51,767 nt of DNA from the NCBI GenBank assembly GCA_026400835.1, contig JAPLOA010000073.1, forward strand, positions 1 through 51,767, written 5' to 3'. The notes below the pieces were generated by a model. That model was not told the DNA's origin. It searched no databases and saw only the letters and a list, made by a program, of their open reading frames with translations. Position numbers and translations under genes: made by a program. Below, piece after piece: positions 11,590 through 47,791 of this stretch (position 1 is its first letter; each line of letters begins with the position of its first letter). Origin of the DNA: Planctomycetales bacterium. GTDB lineage: Bacteria; Planctomycetota; Planctomycetia; Planctomycetales; Planctomycetaceae.

Positions 11590-11642
11590 TCCCGTTGGCG
11601 GAGCGACAGGTGTACCGTACGTCCGTCGCTCCGCCGACGGGA
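11590..11642. repeat. 53-nt inverted repeat with an 18-bp stem
   Basis: TCCCGTTGGCGGAGCGAC (11590-11607) pairs with GTCGCTCCGCCGACGGGA (11625-11642) with one G-U pair, around a 17-base loop. It sits between the fusion gene and the SDR gene. It could end the upstream transcript but has no T-run, and resembles the other palindromic repeats of this genome. Confidence 0.65.
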
Positions 11643-16971: not shown

Positions 16972-17874
16972 TCAGCTATTGCGAGAACGCAGTTGTTGCT
17001 GCAATTGTTCAGCCATATCGTTCAGTTGAGCCTCATCGCTGCCAGCGAATTGCTCCGCAGTCGACAAAGGCAAACCAAGAAGTTCCTGCAGCAAAATGAT
17101 TCGCCCCATCAGCAAGCCACATGCCTTACCGCGTGCTTCTCCAATCTCTTCACCCTCAAGGCGTGCACGAAGAATTCGAGCGACTTCATCACGATGCAAC
17201 TTGAGTCGAGCGTTATAGAGCATGAGTTGTTCGGGGCTTTGCGAGATCATTTCGAGAACTCCGGCGGCTTCTGAAATTTCCAGGTCGGGAAACAACGTCC
17301 GGACGTCAGCAGAAGACATTTTATCTGCATTCTGCAGGAAGTAGGCCCAACGTTCCGCTGGCATCGCATGATACACATTCTCCGCTGTCGCCTGAAGACT
17401 ATTCAACTGCAAAAGATGAATTTGCAAATCGTCCGTCAGGATCAAGTCGGACGACAACTCCTTGAGCCGAAAATCGAGATGCAACGCCGACGAGTGGGGA
17501 AACATCGGTTCGGTCAGGACGCAGATGCTGATCGCAGGGCGAAGTTCGTAATATTGATTGCCCTCGTACAGTTGGCTGACATAGAGATTGGACACGTAAT
17601 AGGCCAGACGCTGCGCCATTCCGGCTGGTAGTGAAGTCTGCATTTCGATGTTCAGCAACCGCCCGTGTTCGTCCGTTGCAAGAATGTCGAGGATCGAAAG
17701 CTTGTCGTCTTCAGACTGCTTGCCCAAAAATGGATTCAGGATCTCGACATGAGTAATCCGGGGCTGATCCGTAAGAATCGAATTCAGAAAATGAATAGTG
17801 ATACCCGAGTGCTCAGGACTGCCCAACATCAGTTTAAATGCGTAGTCGACGAGGGGACTGATACCGATCGCCAT
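16972..17874 (-). CDS. Rpn-family recombination-promoting nuclease / putative transposase (PD-(D/E)XK)
   Basis: A 300-aa protein of the Rpn/YhgA-like family, which nicks DNA and promotes RecA-independent recombination. The start MAIGISPLVDYAFKLMLG is typical; the nuclease core shows Asp63 (LDILATDE) and the Glu77-x-Gln79 motif (LLNIEMQ), followed by RLAYYVSNLYVSQL. The C-terminus is coiled-coil-like and rich in Glu, Arg and Gln, and ends QLQQQLRSRNS. An open frame runs 63 codons upstream, but the ATG at 17872-17874 is preceded by GGAG (about 17883) and is the family start. One copy of the three-copy foldable element lies about 210 bases upstream in the same orientation. Confidence 0.9.
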   Translation of the reverse strand: MAIGISPLVDYAFKLMLGSPEHSGITIHFLNSILTDQPRITHVEILNPFLGKQSEDDKLSILDILATDEHGRLLNIEMQTSLPAGMAQRLAYYVSNLYVSQLYEGNQYYELRPAISICVLTEPMFPHSSALHLDFRLKELSSDLILTDDLQIHLLQLNSLQATAENVYHAMPAERWAYFLQNADKMSSADVRTLFPDLEISEAAGVLEMISQSPEQLMLYNARLKLHRDEVARILRARLEGEEIGEARGKACGLLMGRIILLQELLGLPLSTAEQFAGSDEAQLNDMAEQLQQQLRSRNS

Positions 17875-18203
17875 GTTTTTCTCTCCAGAGTTTGCAACAC
17901 GTCGAATTTCGAAGAATATCTGATTCCGGCGTGAAAGGAACGTCCGCAGGTGTACGGGATCGTTTCCCCTGCAGAAACATCGATTCGAACCGTTTGACTT
18001 CTTTGGTGATGTGATTAACGTGTCCGCTATGAATGGCTGCTGTTTCCTGACTGCGAGCGGCAACCTGCCACGTACAGGCTTATTCTCTGCACGGTGTGAA
18101 TTGAGGCCGGGTGTTCGCGGGATACCTGATAGACGTCAGGCTCAATTGTTCGCCGCGCTCAGAATAACCATTCTTTTCTTGACACACACTCCGGGAGATA
18201 ACC
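17875..18203. other. Divergent intergenic region with one copy of the three-copy foldable element
   Basis: Between the Rpn gene (minus) and the isomerase gene (plus). Apart from the foldable element at 18083-18164 nothing else is recognised. Confidence 0.5.
18083..18164 (-). ncRNA. Foldable ~85-nt element, copy C (candidate structured RNA or palindromic repeat)
   Basis: On the minus strand TTCTGAGCGCGG (18153-18164) faces CCGTGCAGAGAA (18083-18094), and an inner stem AATTGAGCC faces GGCCTCAATT. The loop contains CCCGCGAACACC. Here the outer stem extends by AATAA/TTATT beyond the span given. Related copies are at 20222-20306 and 22424-22508. It lies upstream of the Rpn gene in that gene's orientation. 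Confidence 0.55.
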
Positions 18204-19199
18204 ATGGGACGTCCTGTCACTCTGTTTACTGGTCAGTGGGCTGACCTGCCACTGGAAACACTCTGCAAGAAGGCTCGCGAATTTGGCTACGACGGACTGG
18301 AACTGGCCTGTTGGGGTGACCACTTTGAAGTGGATAAAGCCTTGTCTGACGACGCCTATTGTGCTCGCAAACGCGAGCTGCTGGAAAAGCATGATCTGAA
18401 GTTGTTCGCGATCTCCAATCATCTTGTTGGCCAGGCGGTTCTGGACAATATCGATGCGCGACACAAGTCGATTCTTCCGGACTATGTCTGGGGCGACGGA
18501 GATCCCGCCGGAGTGAATGCTCGCGCGATTGAAGAGATGAAGAACACAGCCCGCGCAGCGCAGAAGCTGGGTGTCAGCATTGTCAACGGGTTTACAGGGT
18601 CCAGCGTGTGGCACCTGATTTATGACTTCCCGCCGACACCAAAGTCGATGTACGACAAAGGCTTCCAATTGCTGGCCGAGCGATGGAATCCGATTCTGGA
18701 TGTGTTTCAGGACTGCGGAGTCAAGTTTGCTCTGGAAGTTCACCCAACAGAAATCGCGTTCGACATTTACACTGCAGAGCGAGCATTGCAGGCGTTGAAT
18801 CATCGCGAGGAATTCGGGTTCAACTTTGATCCAAGCCATTTGATTTGGCAGGGAATTGATCCAGTTGAGTTCATTCGATACTTCCCGGATCGAATTTATC
18901 ACGTACACATGAAAGATGCTTCGGTCACGCTGAATGGACGGACCGGAATTCTGGGCAGCCATATTTCCTTCGGGGATGCTCGTCGCGGCTGGGACTTCCG
19001 CAGCGTTGGTCGTGGTGGTGTTCGCTTTGAAGAAATCATTCGCGCGTTGAATGCGGCGAAGTACACTGGACCATTGTCTGTGGAGTGGGAAGACAGCGGC
19101 ATGGATCGCGAACATGGAGCCGCCGAAGCAGCTCAGTTCTGCAAGAACGTGGACTTCCAGCCGTCCAGCCGAGCCTTTGATGCGGCGTTTGGGGATTAG
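18204..19199 (+). CDS. Sugar phosphate isomerase/epimerase (xylose isomerase-like TIM barrel)
   Basis: A 331-aa protein of the AP-endonuclease-2/xylose isomerase-like TIM-barrel superfamily. Metal-binding motifs are visible: [11 protein letters not shown] (about residues 30-40), [11 protein letters not shown] with the conserved Glu, [11 protein letters not shown] with Asp and His, HVHMKDA, and [14 protein letters not shown] near the end. Planctomycetes have many such enzymes for sugar or inositol catabolism; the substrate is unknown. GGGAG lies just before the ATG at 18204. A strong hairpin terminator follows the gene, so it is a single-gene unit. Confidence 0.9.
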
Positions 19200-19223
19200 C
19201 CCTGAAGCATCAGTCGAAAAATC

Positions 19224-19258
19224 AAAACACCTCCGGGATTCCTCGGAGGTGTTTTCGT
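19224..19258 (+). terminator. Rho-independent terminator of the isomerase gene
   Basis: AAAACACCTCCG (19224-19235) and CGGAGGTGTTTT (19244-19255) form a perfect 12-bp stem with an 8-base loop, ending in a T-run, 25 bases after the stop codon. Confidence 0.88.
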
Positions 19259-19420
19259 TACAGGCCTTTGATTTTTTCTGTTCAAAGGGAAGAAATGCCA
19301 CGGGATCGATTGATGCGTTCAGAGGCGTGATTTGAAGACTTGAGCCAAAGTCAGAAAAAGGTTTCTGAAGAATTGTGGTGCGGAAGCAGGAAAGGCCATT
19401 CCTGCCAGCAAAAAAAGCTA

Positions 19421-19449
19421 TTGACCTGTTCTGCCGATTTCTTTTAACC
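19421..19449 (+). promoter_or_regulatory. Possible sigma-70-like promoter
   Basis: TTGACC at 19421-19426, a 17-base spacer, and TTAACC at 19444-19449. The -10 matches TATAAT poorly. It would serve the small lipoprotein gene at 19653. Confidence 0.25.
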
Positions 19450-19652
19450 TCCCACCCACTCGAACTGTGGTTCCTGCAGTTCAAATCTCCTCTCGTTCTC
19501 TCCTCTCGAATGTTCGCCGACTTCTTCTCTCTGATCTGAGGCTGGACCAGGAACTCCGCATTCCAATGTCTCAGGTTCGTTCTCATGAGGTTGCGACCGT
19601 TCACCATCCCGCCCTGTTGCTGAAATCTCAGTGACACCCCGGAGGCTCTCTG

Positions 19653-19943
19653 ATGTCTCGTTTCGCAAGCATTTGTGCTGGCCTGTTGATGGTCAGTTCT
19701 CTAAGCGGCTGTTGTCTGCTCGGTCACGGCTGTGGTGGTGGCGGCTACGCTCCTATGGGCGGTGGCTACGGTGGCGGCTGTTCGCCCTGTCAAAGCGGAG
19801 CCTGTGGAGCGATGGCTCCAGGTTATCCGTCCGCTTATAGTCCGGGCGTTCCGCAATCTGCTTACCTCGCGCCACAGGTTGCAGGCTACGCACCTCAGGC
19901 AAGTCAGCAGATGGTCATGATGGACACTCTGCCAACGTATTAA
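19653..19943 (+). CDS. Small Gly-rich lipoprotein, hypothetical
   Basis: A 96-aa protein with a lipoprotein signal (hydrophobic ICAGLLMVSSLSG, lipobox LSGC with Cys20) followed by a Cys- and Gly-rich segment (residues 20-55, including GHGCGGGG and GGGYGGGCSPC) and a Tyr/Pro/Ala/Gln-rich tail. It is preceded by a good GGAGG ribosome site at about 19640-19644. Likely an outer-membrane or surface lipoprotein. Small Gly/Cys-rich proteins of this kind are frequent in planctomycetes; function unknown. Confidence 0.75.
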   Translation: MSRFASICAGLLMVSSLSGCCLLGHGCGGGGYAPMGGGYGGGCSPCQSGACGAMAPGYPSAYSPGVPQSAYLAPQVAGYAPQASQQMVMMDTLPTY

Positions 19944-20163
19944 TCTGCCAACGATTCTGACGTTTGGATATCGGCAGCGAACGTACATGTTCGTGGTCAG
20001 TTGATCAATTCGTCATATCACGGTCCGCGTCTGCGTGTCAGGCGATTGACGGCCGCTGGCATCGCTCGTCGCGGGCGGGGTAATTACCTGCCAGCCGCGG
20101 GAGCAGGAACCATACAATTGGAAGCGCTGGGCGAAGCCCCTCCCTCTTCGTCCACTCTGTTCC

Positions 20164-20202
20164 AGTGCCGAGCGATTCGACATGTTTGAATCGCTCGGCA
20201 CT
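20164..20202. terminator. Strong hairpin, probable terminator
   Basis: AGTGCCGAGCGATTC and GAATCGCTCGGCACT form a perfect 15-bp stem with a 9-base loop, about 220 bases after the lipoprotein gene. The T-run after it is short, so it may act as a transcript end or be a palindromic repeat. Confidence 0.55.
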
Positions 20203-20221
20203 TTCCTGCGCCGACAGATTA

Positions 20222-20306
20222 TTCTGTGCGCGGCCACGATTGAGGCATTAGTCTGTATGATGGACCCCGCGAACACCTGGCCTCAGTTTATGCCGCGCGC
20301 GGAGTA
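20222..20306 (+). ncRNA. Foldable ~85-nt element, copy A (candidate structured RNA or palindromic repeat)
   Basis: TTCTGTGCGCGG (20222-20233) pairs with CCGCGCGCGGAG (20293-20304), all twelve positions when G-U is allowed. An inner stem ATTGAGGC (20239-20246) pairs with GCCTCAGT (20280-20287). The loop contains CCCGCGAACACC. It ends about 35 bases before the HicB-like gene and is oriented with it. Confidence 0.55.
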
Positions 20307-20340
20307 TTCTTTTCATGCTTGATGCTTGCAGAATGACGTC

Positions 20341-20652
20341 ATGACCTCGGAACAATTGCCTCAACTCAGTGAATCCTCGTGCGGATCCGGACTGTCATCG
20401 GTCCCGGTCTTCAACTGCATCGCCATTCTTTCTCCGATTTCCGGATCAACAAAACTTGCGGGTCGAATCGCAAATCTGGAGGGGATTTCTGCGGAAGGCA
20501 ATACAGAACGAGATGTCCTGATTCAGCTGACAAAGCGTTTCAAGTCGACCGTTCAGGAGTTTTCTCAGAAGCAGCAGTTGATTCCGTGGATCGATCCTCC
20601 GGAAGCTCCTCGCCCCGGAGAAATGCAGAGATTTATTCCGATCCATTTGTGA
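20341..20652 (+). CDS. Small HicB-like conserved hypothetical protein
   Basis: A 103-aa protein. Its core, GRIANLEGISAEGNTERDVLIQLTKRFKSTVQEF (split here: residues about 41-57 and 58-74), resembles the HicB antitoxin fold, a beta hairpin followed by a helix that follows a 'G-x-T-x-x-x-A' type turn; a distinctive end WIDPPEAPRPGEMQRFIPIHL follows. The ATG at 20341 is chosen over an upstream TTG at 20326. No HicA-type toxin is adjacent, so it is not clearly a toxin-antitoxin partner. It converges with the serine hydrolase gene. Reading as a real gene rests on its regular sequence and resemblance to a planctomycete family recalled from memory. Confidence 0.65.
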   Translation: MTSEQLPQLSESSCGSGLSSVPVFNCIAILSPISGSTKLAGRIANLEGISAEGNTERDVLIQLTKRFKSTVQEFSQKQQLIPWIDPPEAPRPGEMQRFIPIHL

Positions 20653-20694
20653 CCACCCGCGAATCAGCCTTCTGTTGGGTCAAGCCGAGTGAAG

Positions 20695-22326
20695 TTAATC
20701 AGCGGTTGGCGAACGTCGTGGATGAGATTCCGAAACTGCCTTATGTAAATCGTGGTCGACAGCATCCGTGCAGCGGTCGCCCTTCAGAGTTCGGTCGACG
20801 TTGAAGATGACGGCCCAGCTGTAGCCATCATGCCGACGAACCAGCAGAGAAGATGTGCCGGCAAGTGAACCCGTATGCCAGTAATTTCTCCGGTTGTCAT
20901 CACCGACAGTGCGAACATTCCAGCCAAGTCCGTACCAAACAGCGGCGGACGAGCGATCAGTGAATGAAGGCGACTCCAGCATTAGTCGACGTGACTCCTC
21001 TGAAAGCAAAGGCGATTTCTCCGAATCGATCGCGTCCACGAATTGCACCAGATCCTGAGCTGTTGAAGTCCATCCTCCGAATGAATCCATCACCTCCAGA
21101 TCCCACTGGCCGTATGTTGGGGCGACCATCTCGAAGGTTGCTCCCGTCTTTCTCGTGGCCAGTTCCCACACGGTGGGAGTCTGCGTGATCTTCTGTGTGT
21201 AATACCGCGTCTCATCAGCGGCGCGATCCGACAACCGGGTTTTCCCGAGTCTAGTCTGAGTCATCCCTGCGGCAGAGAGAATTCGTTCTGTTACGAATTG
21301 CTCGTAAGTCTGTCCGGAAGCCGCTTCGATGATTCGTCCGAGCATGCAGTAGCCAAGGTTGCTGTAGGCGTACCGAGAGCCAGGTTCGAAATCGAGCGGC
21401 CGCTTTAACTGATATTGCAGGATGTCATTGTTTCGAGCCAGCTTCTTGAGTTCCAATTGTTGCGTAACAGTAACCAGCTGGAAGACAGTGTCCTTCGATT
21501 TCTCCCGATCCCAGCCTGCGGAATGATTCAAGAGTTGTTCTACCGAAATTGTGGACCATCGAGGATCTGACTTGATGGCGACCTCCGCGTCGAACGAATA
21601 CGAAGGATGCTTTGCCAGAAGCGGGAGTACTTTCTCGTCCAGCTTGAGCTTTCCATCCTGAACCAGCAGCAGAATCGCCACGGCAGTAATGGGTTTTGAT
21701 ACGCTGGCGATTCGCATGTTGGCGGCTGCCGGCATCGCTGTCATTGTGTGAACCTCGGAGTATCCGAAGCCGCGAGCAAATAGTAGCTCACCGCGATAAG
21801 AGACAGCCAACGTTGCACCCGGAATGTTGTTCTCCTTCAGAGTGCGCCGCATGAGTTCGTTCAGGGGCTGGAGATCACGACCAACTTGTCCGGACTCGGG
21901 AATGTCACCTTCGGGCAGAGTCAGCTTTGCCGCCGCATCGGGATCCTGAACCCAAACGGCTGAATGGCGTCGCTTGCGGTTGATCGTGGCGGTCTCATGG
22001 ATTGTCATCGCAAAGCCATCGCCCTCGTACTTTTTGGAGCTTGTTTTGAAAGCCGCTTCGCTGATGTTGAACTCAATGACCCATGGCTTCTGCTGAGAAT
22101 TGTCGACGGATGTCACATTGTAGGCTGGTTTTCCCCCGATCACGTTAAACTTCAGCTCGGTGATGATCTTCCGAGCCTGGGCCAGTTCATCGACGTAGGA
22201 TCCCATCTGATCGTCCGGGATATCGGTTCGTATAACCTCATCGGCAAAACTCATCGCTCGCCCGAAGAAGCCAGACGCGAGAACCGCCACAAGGTATATG
22301 CAAAATCGTTTCATGTTCTGCGTCAT
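20695..22326 (-). CDS. Serine hydrolase of the class C beta-lactamase/esterase family, secreted
   Basis: A 543-aa exported protein. An N-terminal signal sequence (MKRFCIYLVAVLASGFFGRAMSFA) is followed by an extra domain of about 120 residues (30-150) not usual in the family. The catalytic domain carries Ser208-Val-Ser-Lys211 (SxxK), the Tyr-x-Asn element in RYAYSNLGY, and HTGSLAGT in place of the KTG box. Such enzymes are esterases, D-aminopeptidases or penicillin-binding-protein-like; beta-lactamase activity is not implied. The ATG at 22324-22326 is preceded by GGAGCC eight bases upstream and is preferred to a TTG further up. Confidence 0.88.
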   Translation of the reverse strand: MTQNMKRFCIYLVAVLASGFFGRAMSFADEVIRTDIPDDQMGSYVDELAQARKIITELKFNVIGGKPAYNVTSVDNSQQKPWVIEFNISEAAFKTSSKKYEGDGFAMTIHETATINRKRRHSAVWVQDPDAAAKLTLPEGDIPESGQVGRDLQPLNELMRRTLKENNIPGATLAVSYRGELLFARGFGYSEVHTMTAMPAAANMRIASVSKPITAVAILLLVQDGKLKLDEKVLPLLAKHPSYSFDAEVAIKSDPRWSTISVEQLLNHSAGWDREKSKDTVFQLVTVTQQLELKKLARNNDILQYQLKRPLDFEPGSRYAYSNLGYCMLGRIIEAASGQTYEQFVTERILSAAGMTQTRLGKTRLSDRAADETRYYTQKITQTPTVWELATRKTGATFEMVAPTYGQWDLEVMDSFGGWTSTAQDLVQFVDAIDSEKSPLLSEESRRLMLESPSFTDRSSAAVWYGLGWNVRTVGDDNRRNYWHTGSLAGTSSLLVRRHDGYSWAVIFNVDRTLKGDRCTDAVDHDLHKAVSESHPRRSPTAD

Positions 22327-22423
22327 TGAAGGCTCCGACAACTCGCTCAAAAGCAGCCTGCCGCAGGGTATCCGGAAGTTTTGGGTGAATCCACAGAGTG
22401 CGAGTAACCTCCGGGGGACTTGT

Positions 22424-22508
22424 TTCTGTGCGTGGCCACAATTGAGGCAATGATCTGTACGATGTATCCCGCGAACACCCCGACTCGGTTCAAACCGTGC
22501 AAGGAATA
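22424..22508 (+). ncRNA. Foldable ~85-nt element, copy B (candidate structured RNA or palindromic repeat)
   Basis: TTCTGTGCGTGG (22424-22435) pairs with CCGTGCAAGGAA (22495-22506) at eleven of twelve positions with wobbles, and ATTGAG (22441-22446) pairs with CTCGGT (22484-22489). About 48 of the first 56 bases match copy A. It is oriented toward yajC but ends over 370 bases before it. Confidence 0.55.
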
Positions 22509-22724
22509 ACTCAGCCCCGCCGGGTAAACTCAGATTCAGGGTGCCGAGGGGATTTGTGATTGTTTTCGAGTTGCGAAGGCAGGTTGGCCTCGCAGCCCAG
22601 CATCGCCATCGCGAATCGCGGAGTCTGTTCCCGGAATCCGAGCGAACTCGATCATTTCCGGCTTCAAAACCTTCAATTTGAACAGACTTGTTCCCCGGTT
22701 CCGGCAGGATAGAGGCACCGGACG

Positions 22725-32048: not shown

Positions 32049-32096
32049 GCGGAAGGTTTTGATCCGTCTGTAATTTATTCACGCTGCCGAATCCAT

Positions 32097-32162
32097 CGTT
32101 TAGCGGCAAGCCGGAGGCGTCGGTGCAGACAAACGCAGTCGCCTTCGGCTTGCCGTTAAACG
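32097..32162. repeat. CGTTTA-family palindromic repeat
   Basis: CGTTTAGCGGCAAGCCGGAG (start of the left arm, 32097-32119) pairs with the right arm 32140-32162 (ends CGGCTTGCCGTTAAACG), a near-perfect 23-bp stem around a 20-base spacer. Other members are at 43928-43993 and, degenerate, 6296-6356. Confidence 0.82.
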
Positions 32163-32242
32163 ATTCAGGCCAAAACGTTGCTAATCTCCTTCGGTTCAAG
32201 AACAGGATTATTGAGAACCTTGAGCCTGCTCCGGCTTCACCA

Positions 32243-43892: not shown

Positions 43893-43927
43893 GGTCTATG
43901 GAGTTAGTCTGCCACCTTGCCTTCTTT

Positions 43928-43993
43928 CGTTTAACGGCAAGCCGTAGGCGTCGGCGAAATCGAGCAACTACGCCTGCGGCTTGCCGTTGAACG
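43928..43993. repeat. CGTTTA-family palindromic repeat
   Basis: CGTTTAACGGCAAGCCG begins the left arm (43928-43950) and CGGCTTGCCGTTGAACG ends the right arm (43971-43993), a 23-bp near-perfect stem with a 20-base spacer. It belongs with 32097-32162. Confidence 0.82.
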
Positions 43994-44041
43994 ATCAACT
44001 CCACGCGGAACAAATTGATCTCGACTGAAAGAAACACCACC

Positions 44042-46913: not shown

Positions 46914-47791
46914 GCGAAAAATCCTGGTTCAAGAGTGAGGCGGGGCGATCAAATTCGAGGCGGGAATTCAGGCGATGTCAGGACGTTAAAACCGGTTCGG
47001 ACAGCCTAAATCAAGGCACCAGCTTAACGAGGTCGACCGATGATGGTCAAGAACTGCAGGAAATACACGGGCCGGATCGCAAAATCCAGTGCCAAAAGGA
47101 CCGGCCGACGGGATTGATCCGGCTGGCTTCCGCGACAATTCGTTCATCCGAGAGCGAGACAGAAACGGGAAACAGCCATGGTTCAACGGCTGCTGCCGCC
47201 AGGCCGGTCGCCAGTTTCGGAATCTTCTTGAGTTTGTTTTTGATCATCGGTCGAGCTTTCTCTTCGGAGGACAGAAGTGTTTTCTGTCTCAGCGAGATTG
47301 GACTCGAAGTGTGACACAAAAATGGGAGCAAAACGGGCATGCTGCAGAGAACCTGTCAAGAATCCCACCTGCACCACGGGCGTAGTCGCGGCTGATTGTC
47401 AAAGCAGGTCCTCTCTGCTGGATAGGATTTCCTTATTGCCACGCGGTGAACCGTGTGTGCAACCGGCTGAGGATCGCAACTGGCTTTATCAATCCAGTTG
47501 CACACAGATCGCGGCAAGCCGCGAAGTCCTGCCCGGCAGGCAGGACCTACCGAAGTCGCCGACTGCATTCCTGCACGAACGACCCTCCCAACGCCAGTCG
47601 ACTTACTGGGGATTTTAGTATAAACTTCAATAACCCATTCAGCTTTGGGCACAAACTCAGCAGCCAGAGTGCTCTCCGTCATTTTTGTGAGACAAAGTTG
47701 AGGCGTAGCAGGCTCATCGGGAACGCAGCCCGGGGATACTGGGTTTGTATCGAAATGAGTTCAGGCAGGACACAGAACGACGAGAATCACG
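46914..47791. other. 878-nt divergent noncoding region with one dispersed repeat
   Basis: Short frames on both strands lack family features. The region contains the second copy of the 69-nt repeat (47499-47567). A minus-strand ORF (66 aa from about 47247) begins MIKNKLKK but has no recognised family or ribosome site, so it is not called. It could contain decayed coding sequence. Confidence 0.4.
47499..47567 (+). repeat. 69-nt dispersed palindromic repeat, copy 2
   Basis: 63 of 69 bases equal those of the minus-strand copy at 2377-2445, including the two hairpins GTCCTGCC/GGCAGGAC and the GCGGC/GCCGC stem. The ends are TGCA in both copies. Confidence 0.8.

Follow-up and report, generated by a model that had tools for sequence, protein, structure and literature searches.

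The window, a 51,767-nucleotide stretch of a Planctomycetales bacterium contig (JAPLOA010000073.1), carries three copies of a short repeat, which is very probably an orphan MITE-like element, comparable to RUP, Correia and ERIC and moved in trans by a transposase. It is a small non-coding mobile DNA (coding capacity being judged by length alone), which has spread about a hundred times in a small group of related planctomycete genomes and is now decaying. A regulatory RNA seems less fitting than a new family within a class of bacterial repeats that is already familiar. The copy number, the lineage-restricted expansion, the intergenic placement, the presence or absence at orthologous sites, the clean TA junctions and the divergence between orthologues are all observed. 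In the proposed mechanism, a unit of about 85 nt (TTCTGTGCGCGGC, the inner stem and conserved core, then GCCGYGCRAAGAA) would insert at a TA, which would then be found on both sides. The two-stem fold would correspond to two imperfect inverted arms of about 27 nt each, read by a transposase acting in trans, and the polymorphic sites would be insertions rather than losses. Any effect on neighbouring genes would be incidental, for example one exerted by a putative transcript hairpin as in Correia or ERIC.

The initial annotation had described three related two-stem copies, which are found again here at positions matching within 1–3 nt. Copy A (88 nt, minus strand, 18080–18167) scores 76.3 bits with a covariance model (E 1.5e-17), copy B (89 nt, plus strand, 20219–20307) has the top score of the three, 90.7 bits (E 8.5e-22), and copy C (89 nt, plus strand, 22421–22509) scores 79.1 bits (E 2.3e-18); each has orthologous copies in genomes G015 and G004. 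In copy B, the two halves of the outer stem are the left and right terminal inverted repeats (20219–20234 and 20292–20307, model positions 1–16 and 74–89), with a TA at 20220–20221 and 20305–20306, respectively, and the inner stem is built from 20238–20246 and 20280–20288 (model positions 20–28 and 62–70). Both stems and the common loop sequence are indeed carried by all three copies, the conserved core CCCGCGAACACC lying at 20266–20277 in B, at 22468–22479 in C (both plus strand) and on the minus strand in A (plus-strand positions 18110–18121). Copies B and C are 78% identical over 85 nt, and fold strength is uneven, with z values of −2.8 (A), −6.4 (B) and +0.8 (C). The example of compensatory change that had been given (GCGCGG/CCGCGC in A, GCGTGG/CCGTGC in B) was mislabelled: the facing segments of the outer stem are GCGCGG/CCGTGC in A, GCGCGG/CCGCGC in B and GCGTGG/CCGTGC in C, and these differences are not compensatory because only G–U wobbles result. 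Each copy does lie upstream of a gene read in the same direction, as had been stated, but A and C are also near called genes of opposite direction, which are closer (36 nt away versus 205 nt for A, 94 nt versus 361 nt for C). The gene downstream of B, labelled HicB-like by the annotation, corresponds to an ORF (20326–20652) without any Pfam match at E ≤ 0.001.

When copy B was used as a BLAST query, 40 places were retrieved in the window's genome (7.58 Mb), and the covariance model finds at least 91 at E ≤ 1e-5 on many contigs, a count for which the 150 best of 2146 candidates from a first look were scored; the resemblance of A, B and C is therefore not a matter of chance. Among the 59 genomes searched, the window's genome (G000) and those of two close species (G004 and G015) have at least 74 matches each, six of the other 15 congeners have 1–6 and nine have none, and no match was obtained in any of the 41 genomes outside the genus. 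The element was not found in plasmids, phages or viral contigs either. The suggestion of a family of small elements was right, the family being a high-copy, lineage-restricted, TA-flanked mobile repeat. Its alignable unit is 82–91 nt long, with an outer stem of 15 pairs and an inner stem of nine, in which 76.7 and 89.2% of the cells are paired, respectively (29 copies). Over 90 copies, the core and the inner stem rank with the best-conserved columns, 10 of the 12 core columns having 83–96% consensus and the remaining two 80 and 69%. The G+C content of 42–60%, unlike that of the AT-rich MITEs in the portions of the reviews cited, is a point against the MITE-like reading. An apical hairpin within the loop (model positions 27–46; 17–20 nt in 84 of the 90 copies) was discarded, its folding being no better than that of shuffles (mean −0.91 versus −0.88 kcal/mol, p = 0.25, with p ≤ 0.05 in 4 of 90 copies), and model R1 still contains it as five pairs.

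Comparison of related species revealed 10 sites which are filled in one and empty in another. Six of the 10 tested G015/G004 loci (five sites) are empty in G000, and an empty counterpart exists in G004 or G015 for five of the 14 tested G000 copies. Four of the 11 displayed empty/filled comparisons are clean, with a single TA in the empty site and TA-like dinucleotides at both ends of the filled one, namely L045/L316 (TTAA), L035/L299 (CTAA), L241/L264 (AATAG) and L044/L296 (ATAA), the right TA copy of the latter being now CA. Two more of the 11 are compatible with TA, and the TA is not readable in five, which speaks against the MITE-like reading. TA may also be read here as a tag, without duplication.

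The search for an autonomous parent among DDE_3, DDE_Tnp_1 and Y1 genes and left-end pattern matches yielded no transposase with matching ends, which is a further point against this reading. The element ends are absent beside five DDE_3 match rows (four with stops) and 16 DDE_Tnp_1 matches of G000, G004 and G015, as well as beside all 19 Y1 (Y1_Tnp) loci of G000, and TATACTCCGCGCGG ends with their surrounding 0.3–4.3 kb, where ORFs were listed by length only, gave no such transposase. According to the cited part of PMC2229807, the partners of such elements are mostly not known, so that an absent partner leaves the parent unnamed and does not refuse the class. End sequences usable for screening transposase loci are TTCTGTGCGCGG or TACTCCGCGCGG.

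The initial annotation had considered a cis-acting RNA and proposed placement relative to genes as a test. Among 90 copies, 83 overlap no called gene, three overlap one by 2–14 nt and four by 25 nt; their context classes fit the intergenic background (p = 0.17), and there is no orientation preference beyond it (tandem orientation 30 versus 21, p = 0.26). The copies thus follow ordinary intergenic space, which counts against a structured RNA acting in cis (leader, riboswitch or mRNA-stability element) and recurring in front of many genes. Such an RNA looks highly improbable, covariation being slight, orientation preference absent and Rfam negative, and it would also have to be reconciled with the lack of matches in the 41 genomes outside the genus. 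Copy B does fold well, and pairing over 29 copies reaches 77.5%, versus 36.5–44.3% with slid partners, but column shuffles already give 76.5% (35 of 500 being as high). The covariation score is equalled in 14 of 500 shuffles and doubly changed cells amount to 24 versus 18.0 (19 of 500 as high), whereas doubly changed pairs amount to 10 versus 9.9, RNAalifold gives zero consensus pairs, and none of the 30 top mutual-information pairs over 90 copies is a base pair. Covariation, which the annotation had proposed to test, is barely above column shuffles over 29 copies. The pairing cells are near independence, with a small Watson–Crick excess (G–U 285, A–C 160 and Watson–Crick 1400, for column-frequency expectations of 286.4, 155.2 and 1362.8). 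The described strand has four G–U versus one A–C among its consensus pairs, but once these five are left out G–U and A–C cells number 112 and 117; similarly, z is below −2 in 36 of 90 copies on this strand and 27 on the other (mononucleotide shuffles), but the described strand has the lower folding energy in just 28 of the 90 copies (mean −24.9 versus −26.9 kcal/mol). Between orthologues, the inner stem changes less (24/418, 31/422) than the apical loop (115/777), but the summed divergence of the element exceeds that of nearby non-coding DNA. A polarised test counted 57 pair-keeping changes, above an expectation of 45.7 (P = 0.0004; outer stem 37 versus 23.1; inner stem 20 versus 17.4, not significant). 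Selection on pairing was nevertheless set aside as an explanation because the polarisation scheme, in which paired–paired changes are given a random direction and every change involving an unpaired state is scored as a loss, inflates the excess. As the annotation had noted, no named RNA family is recognised: Rfam has no match at gathering score in the window, and the three weak matches at E ≤ 5 in 18000–22600 do not fall at the copies.

Divergence also bears on the quite improbable idea that selection retains some former mobile elements as host sites (protein-binding or nucleoid). The conserved core would be accounted for in this way, and the conservation of core and inner stem across copies is in favour. 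In sum, orthologous copies diverge more than nearby non-coding DNA, but pair by pair they do so in only 27 of 47. Their rate is about half that of fourfold sites, so that some constraint is possible, which is also a point against the MITE-like reading; but non-coding DNA overall is slower still, the core-bearing loop changes at least as fast (71/701) as the outer stem (66/752, 76/750), and conservation among paralogues is expected anyway because of descent from few sources. In some orthologous pairs, the elements are up to 20–25% divergent although their flanks are far less so (19.8 versus 1.3% for L049), and 11 of 47 are nearer a G000 paralogue than their G000 orthologue. Replacement or gene conversion between copies may be involved, but in eight of the 11 cases the nearest paralogue is either L031 or L033, two copies with high scores, as independent decay from a shared source would produce. 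It is also unlikely that the element is a REPIN-like or TIR-type repeat that travels as single-stranded hairpin DNA with the help of a Y1 (HUH) transposase, for instance a RAYT. The element is palindromic, intergenic and high copy, like the REP, REPIN and TIR repeats associated with RAYT or TIRYT, and in some species the long inverted repeats that flank Y1 genes make up repeat families (both from the cited part of PMC3733652); G000 has 19 Y1_Tnp matches, and TA at both ends is compatible with a single-strand mechanism without duplication. In contrast to RAYT-linked REP/REPIN, with their GTAG tag and repeat-flanked Y1 gene, no GTAG is seen at the consensus ends, none of the 19 G000 Y1 loci carries the element ends, and the Y1 loci of several congeners have their own, different inverted repeats, e.g., AAGGCCCGAAGGGCC.

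For the MITE-like reading, one of the closest parallels is RUP (about 107 bp, 108–110 copies, inverted ends, TA insertion and a tight fold including the ends, in the cited parts of PMC2229807 and PMC3049150), which the planctomycete element resembles by description. RUP is described there as AT-rich, with IS630-Spn1 as proposed partner, whereas our element is not AT-rich and no partner was found among DDE_3, DDE_Tnp_1 and Y1 loci. The cited parts of PMC10969869 and PMC2229807 describe two further families to which the element is comparable. Correia/NEMIS of Neisseria are small non-autonomous elements (more than 120 copies), mostly directly upstream of genes, whose transcripts fold into stem-loops; transcript effects are reported for them (promoters, IHF site, RNase III cleavage), whereas the present element is known from DNA sequence. 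ERIC, a 127-bp repeat present in tens to hundreds of copies, is alike by description in being mostly intergenic and multicopy but differs in length and phylum. In the portions of the literature covered, no description of a comparable planctomycete family was found.

What had looked like a promising new RNA becomes a MITE-like expansion in planctomycetes, measured through its empty sites, its junctions at TA, the divergence of orthologues and the existence of sister families. This calls for caution when intergenic DNA of planctomycetes is scanned for RNAs, and thanks to the closely related genomes it is practical to date insertions and to look for the mover. The sister families, in the congeners G001, G011 and G014, share the TA-flanked two-stem ends but have other interiors; they are 88–273 nt long, often 121–139, versus about 88 nt in G000, G004 and G015. 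The paired helices and small internal loop could form a genus-wide terminal recognition module, with swapped interiors giving rise to lineage-specific families and a single transposase lineage moving all of them, although we consider this rather unlikely. If the fold itself is read, one would be dealing with a mobile system that recognises hairpins and whose interiors can be exchanged. The proposed module consists of an outer stem of GCGCGG/CCGCGC type and an inner TGAG/CTCA stem.

The three sequences of the window, copy A (18080-18167, minus strand), copy B (20219-20307, plus strand) and copy C (22421-22509, plus strand), exist and are mutually related as the initial annotation had described, which was borne out by sequence comparison. 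A covariance model, R1, was derived from an alignment of 29 copies of the same genome (alignment A2; L014 and L020 were omitted out of 31). With this model, at least 91 places were found at E<=1e-5 in the 7.58 Mb and 112 contigs of that genome (G000), a lower bound since scoring was confined to the top 150 out of 2146 first-look candidates; the later tallies concern the 90 places with a full-length match, the partial 91st being excluded. The family consensus reads TTATTCTGTGCGCGGC-CAC-GATTGAGGC on the left, then a variable apical stretch, then ATCCCGCGAACACCCG-GCCTCAATT-YAY-RCCGYGCRAAGAATAA on the right. What was initially noted as two stems is the pair of inverted arms of a single short unit, which also has a one-sided conserved core. 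Two subfamilies are distinguished by model columns 71-82. A second palindrome, AGAAAAGGGGTCAGGAACCAATAG...GGTTCCTGACCCCTTTTCT, is nested within repeat copies of G000 and of the close species G004 (L275, 3855-4030; L278, 1-124; L279, 26-180).

The repeat looks restricted to one lineage. In a search of 59 genomes, with filters stricter than for G000 and the best 74 candidates per genome scored, at least 74 matches each were obtained in G000 and in two species close to it, G004 and G015. Fewer were found elsewhere in the genus (six in G011, two in G014, one each in G001, G008, G012 and G017), and five of the six in G011 and one of the two in G014 are, judged by their length, longer sister repeats. 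The same search gave no match in nine congeners, nor in any of the 41 genomes outside the genus; a laxer one (E<=0.1) gave matches in six of 15 congeners. An exact 20-mer spanning the core was retrieved from 27 stretches of the GTDB collection, 26 of them in planctomycete-labelled bins (one labelled Candidatus Kuenenia) and one in Ruegeria. No match to this 20-mer was seen in viral contigs, and none to the repeat consensus in plasmids and phages. The label Candidatus Kuenenia stuttgartiensis on L085, L086, L090 and other CAMAXD01 records looks wrong: these records show about 92% identity to the window over 5.6 kb and appear to belong to a congener of G000.

Comparison of filled and empty sites suggests that the repeat moves; what it records at each site is presence or absence. 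The sites of copies A, B and C are also filled in G015 and G004, and these copies are therefore older than the split. Other sites are polymorphic between the three species. Among 14 tested G000 copies, five have an empty counterpart in G004 and/or G015 (L035, L042, L044, L045 and L054), six are filled wherever both flanks were located, and three could not be called. The counterpart of L042 is empty in both species and that of L044 is filled in G015 and empty in G004; the call for L045 relies on a right flank aligned over just 20 nt. Conversely, ten G015/G004 loci had no full partner among the G000 copies. Six (five sites) align to an uninterrupted G000 stretch, two, representing a single site, lie opposite a gap of roughly 98 nt at a position with a weak R1 match in G000 (E 0.007), one was aligned by a single flank and one had no match at all.

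Junctions were inspected in 11 of these empty/filled comparisons. The empty and filled forms are TTAA and TTA-element-TAA at L045/L316, CTAA and CTA-element-TAG at L035/L299, ATAA and ATA-element-CAA at L044/L296, and AATAG and GTA-element-TAG at L241/L264. These four junctions are read as a single TA before insertion and TA-like dinucleotides flanking both sides after it. Two others (L239/L260 and L229/L263) are compatible with this pattern, and no TA pattern is legible at L042 (two comparisons), L054, L248 and L258. Over the 90 copies, TA flanks the left end in 47, the right end in 56 and both in 32.

Orthologous copies (22 G000-G015 and 25 G000-G004 pairs) differ by 6.6% and 12.5%, respectively, against 3.9% and 9.0% for non-coding DNA within 100 nt, 5.2% and 10.2% for all non-coding DNA of the loci, and 13.7% and 22.5% for fourfold sites. 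The element thus lacks protection relative to its surroundings, since it diverges more than the nearby non-coding DNA; like other intergenic DNA, it is slower than fourfold sites. Pair by pair, it exceeds non-coding DNA in 27 of 47 cases and fourfold sites in seven of 47. Its slowest part is the inner stem (24/418 and 31/422) and its fastest the apical loop (115/777). The copy at L049 (1501-1587) differs by 20% from its G015 orthologue, with clustered changes and flanks differing by about 1%.

Covariation of paired columns is in slight excess over column shuffles. Over the 29 copies, pairing reaches 77.5% versus 76.5% in shuffles (35/500 as high), doubly changed cells 24 versus 18.0 (19/500), doubly changed pairs 10 versus 9.9 and the covariation score 0.165 versus 0.147 (14/500), in a test where related sequences may beat shuffles likewise even without structure. 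Slid-partner controls pair in 36.5-44.3% of cells. RNAalifold predicted no consensus pair. Over the 90 copies, the 30 column pairs with the strongest mutual information include no base pair, and most of them touch subfamily columns. A polarised test of pair-keeping between orthologues pointed the opposite way, toward kept pairing, and was discounted; its polarisation inflates the excess of kept pairs. As for strand, the consensus read on the described strand has four G-U pairs against one A-C pair, which hints at that strand; outside these five pairs, G-U and A-C cells balance (112 versus 117, summed over 90 copies). The described strand folds at lower energy than the other in 28 of the 90 copies (means of -24.9 and -26.9 kcal/mol, respectively), and z<-2 is reached by 36 copies on it versus 27 on the other.

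Genes were predicted with our own simple codon-usage caller. The repeat mostly lies outside them: 83 of the 90 copies overlap no called gene, three overlap by 2-14 nt and four by 25 nt, against a coding share of 82% in 300 kb of two G000 contigs. Among the 84 copies with genes called on both sides (four with 25-nt overlaps and two with a missing neighbour were left out), 51 lie in tandem, 28 in divergent and five in convergent settings, versus expectations of 49.1, 24.3 and 10.6 based on the number of intergenic bases (p=0.17, or p=0.07 for the convergent class by itself). The position upstream of a same-direction gene, noted for the three window copies, is no general pattern, as 30 tandem elements are antiparallel to their genes and 21 parallel (p=0.26). 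The gene adjoining copy A (16972-18063, minus strand) belongs to the PDDEXK_2 family of Pfam, and its stretch has many diverged congener matches (about 64-85%).

The repeat ends were sought beside transposases with R1 and as 26-mers (at most 7 mismatches) or 14-mers (at most 2-4 mismatches). They were absent at all 19 Y1 matches of G000 (C24, C72:218127 and 17 others) and, in G000, G004 and G015, at 16 of 16 DDE_Tnp_1 matches and at five DDE_3 match rows. A lone 14-mer with 3 mismatches occurs at three Y1 loci (G003, G004, G015) and one DDE_3 locus.

Congeners poor in the G000-type family hold sister repeats of like plan, 128-141 nt long in G011, G014 and G001: TA-TACTCCGCGCGGC, a short gap, an inner arm of GASTGAG type and a longer interior, then CTCAWWTC and CCGCGCGGAGTA-TA. 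Counts of their 14-nt end, allowing up to 1 mismatch, are 94 in G001, 44 in G011, 27 in G014, four in G003, three in G000 and one in G005. In G001 and G014, 20 such places were retrieved and 13 of them gave paired elements of 88 to 273 nt, some perhaps paired by chance since up to 5 mismatches summed over both ends were permitted. In 20 longer stretches around further ends, no matching partner end enclosed an obvious transposase, ORFs being judged by length alone. Sister-repeat interiors vary widely in G001 (L331, L332, L339 and L342), some with apparent further palindromes or tandem AAATTTC-type units.

RUP, Correia/NEMIS and ERIC are described as small repeats with inverted termini that lie chiefly between genes; most of them have terminal TA, and their transcripts are able to fold and influence mRNAs (PMC2229807, PMC3049150, PMC10969869, PMC3733652). 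The present family is of similar length and copy number, and it also shares their inverted ends, TA and placement; it differs in not being AT-rich and in having no known partner, which according to PMC2229807 holds for most such repeats. It also lacks the GTAG tag carried by REPs. Freshwater planctomycete genomes are described in PMC6461901, the available part of which does not mention such repeats. Altogether, the repeat is well supported as a new MITE-like family of an ordinary kind, restricted to one lineage.

The window holds other inverted repeats. A REP-like palindrome, TCGTTTAACGGCAAGCCG...CGGCTTGCCGTTAAACGA, with 25-nt arms 92% complementary, is present in two copies 78% identical (32095-32164 and 43927-43995). 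Two 69-nt sequences separated by 45 kb (2377-2445 and 47499-47567) are mutually 91% complementary. Inverted repeats also lie at 11590-11642 (26-nt arms 85% complementary, 1-nt spacer) and at the contig end, 51624-51766 (36-nt arms 81% complementary). Immediately upstream of copy B, a perfect 15-bp inverted repeat (20164-20202, AGTGCCGAGCGATTC...GAATCGCTCGGCACT) shows few changes in G015 and G004.
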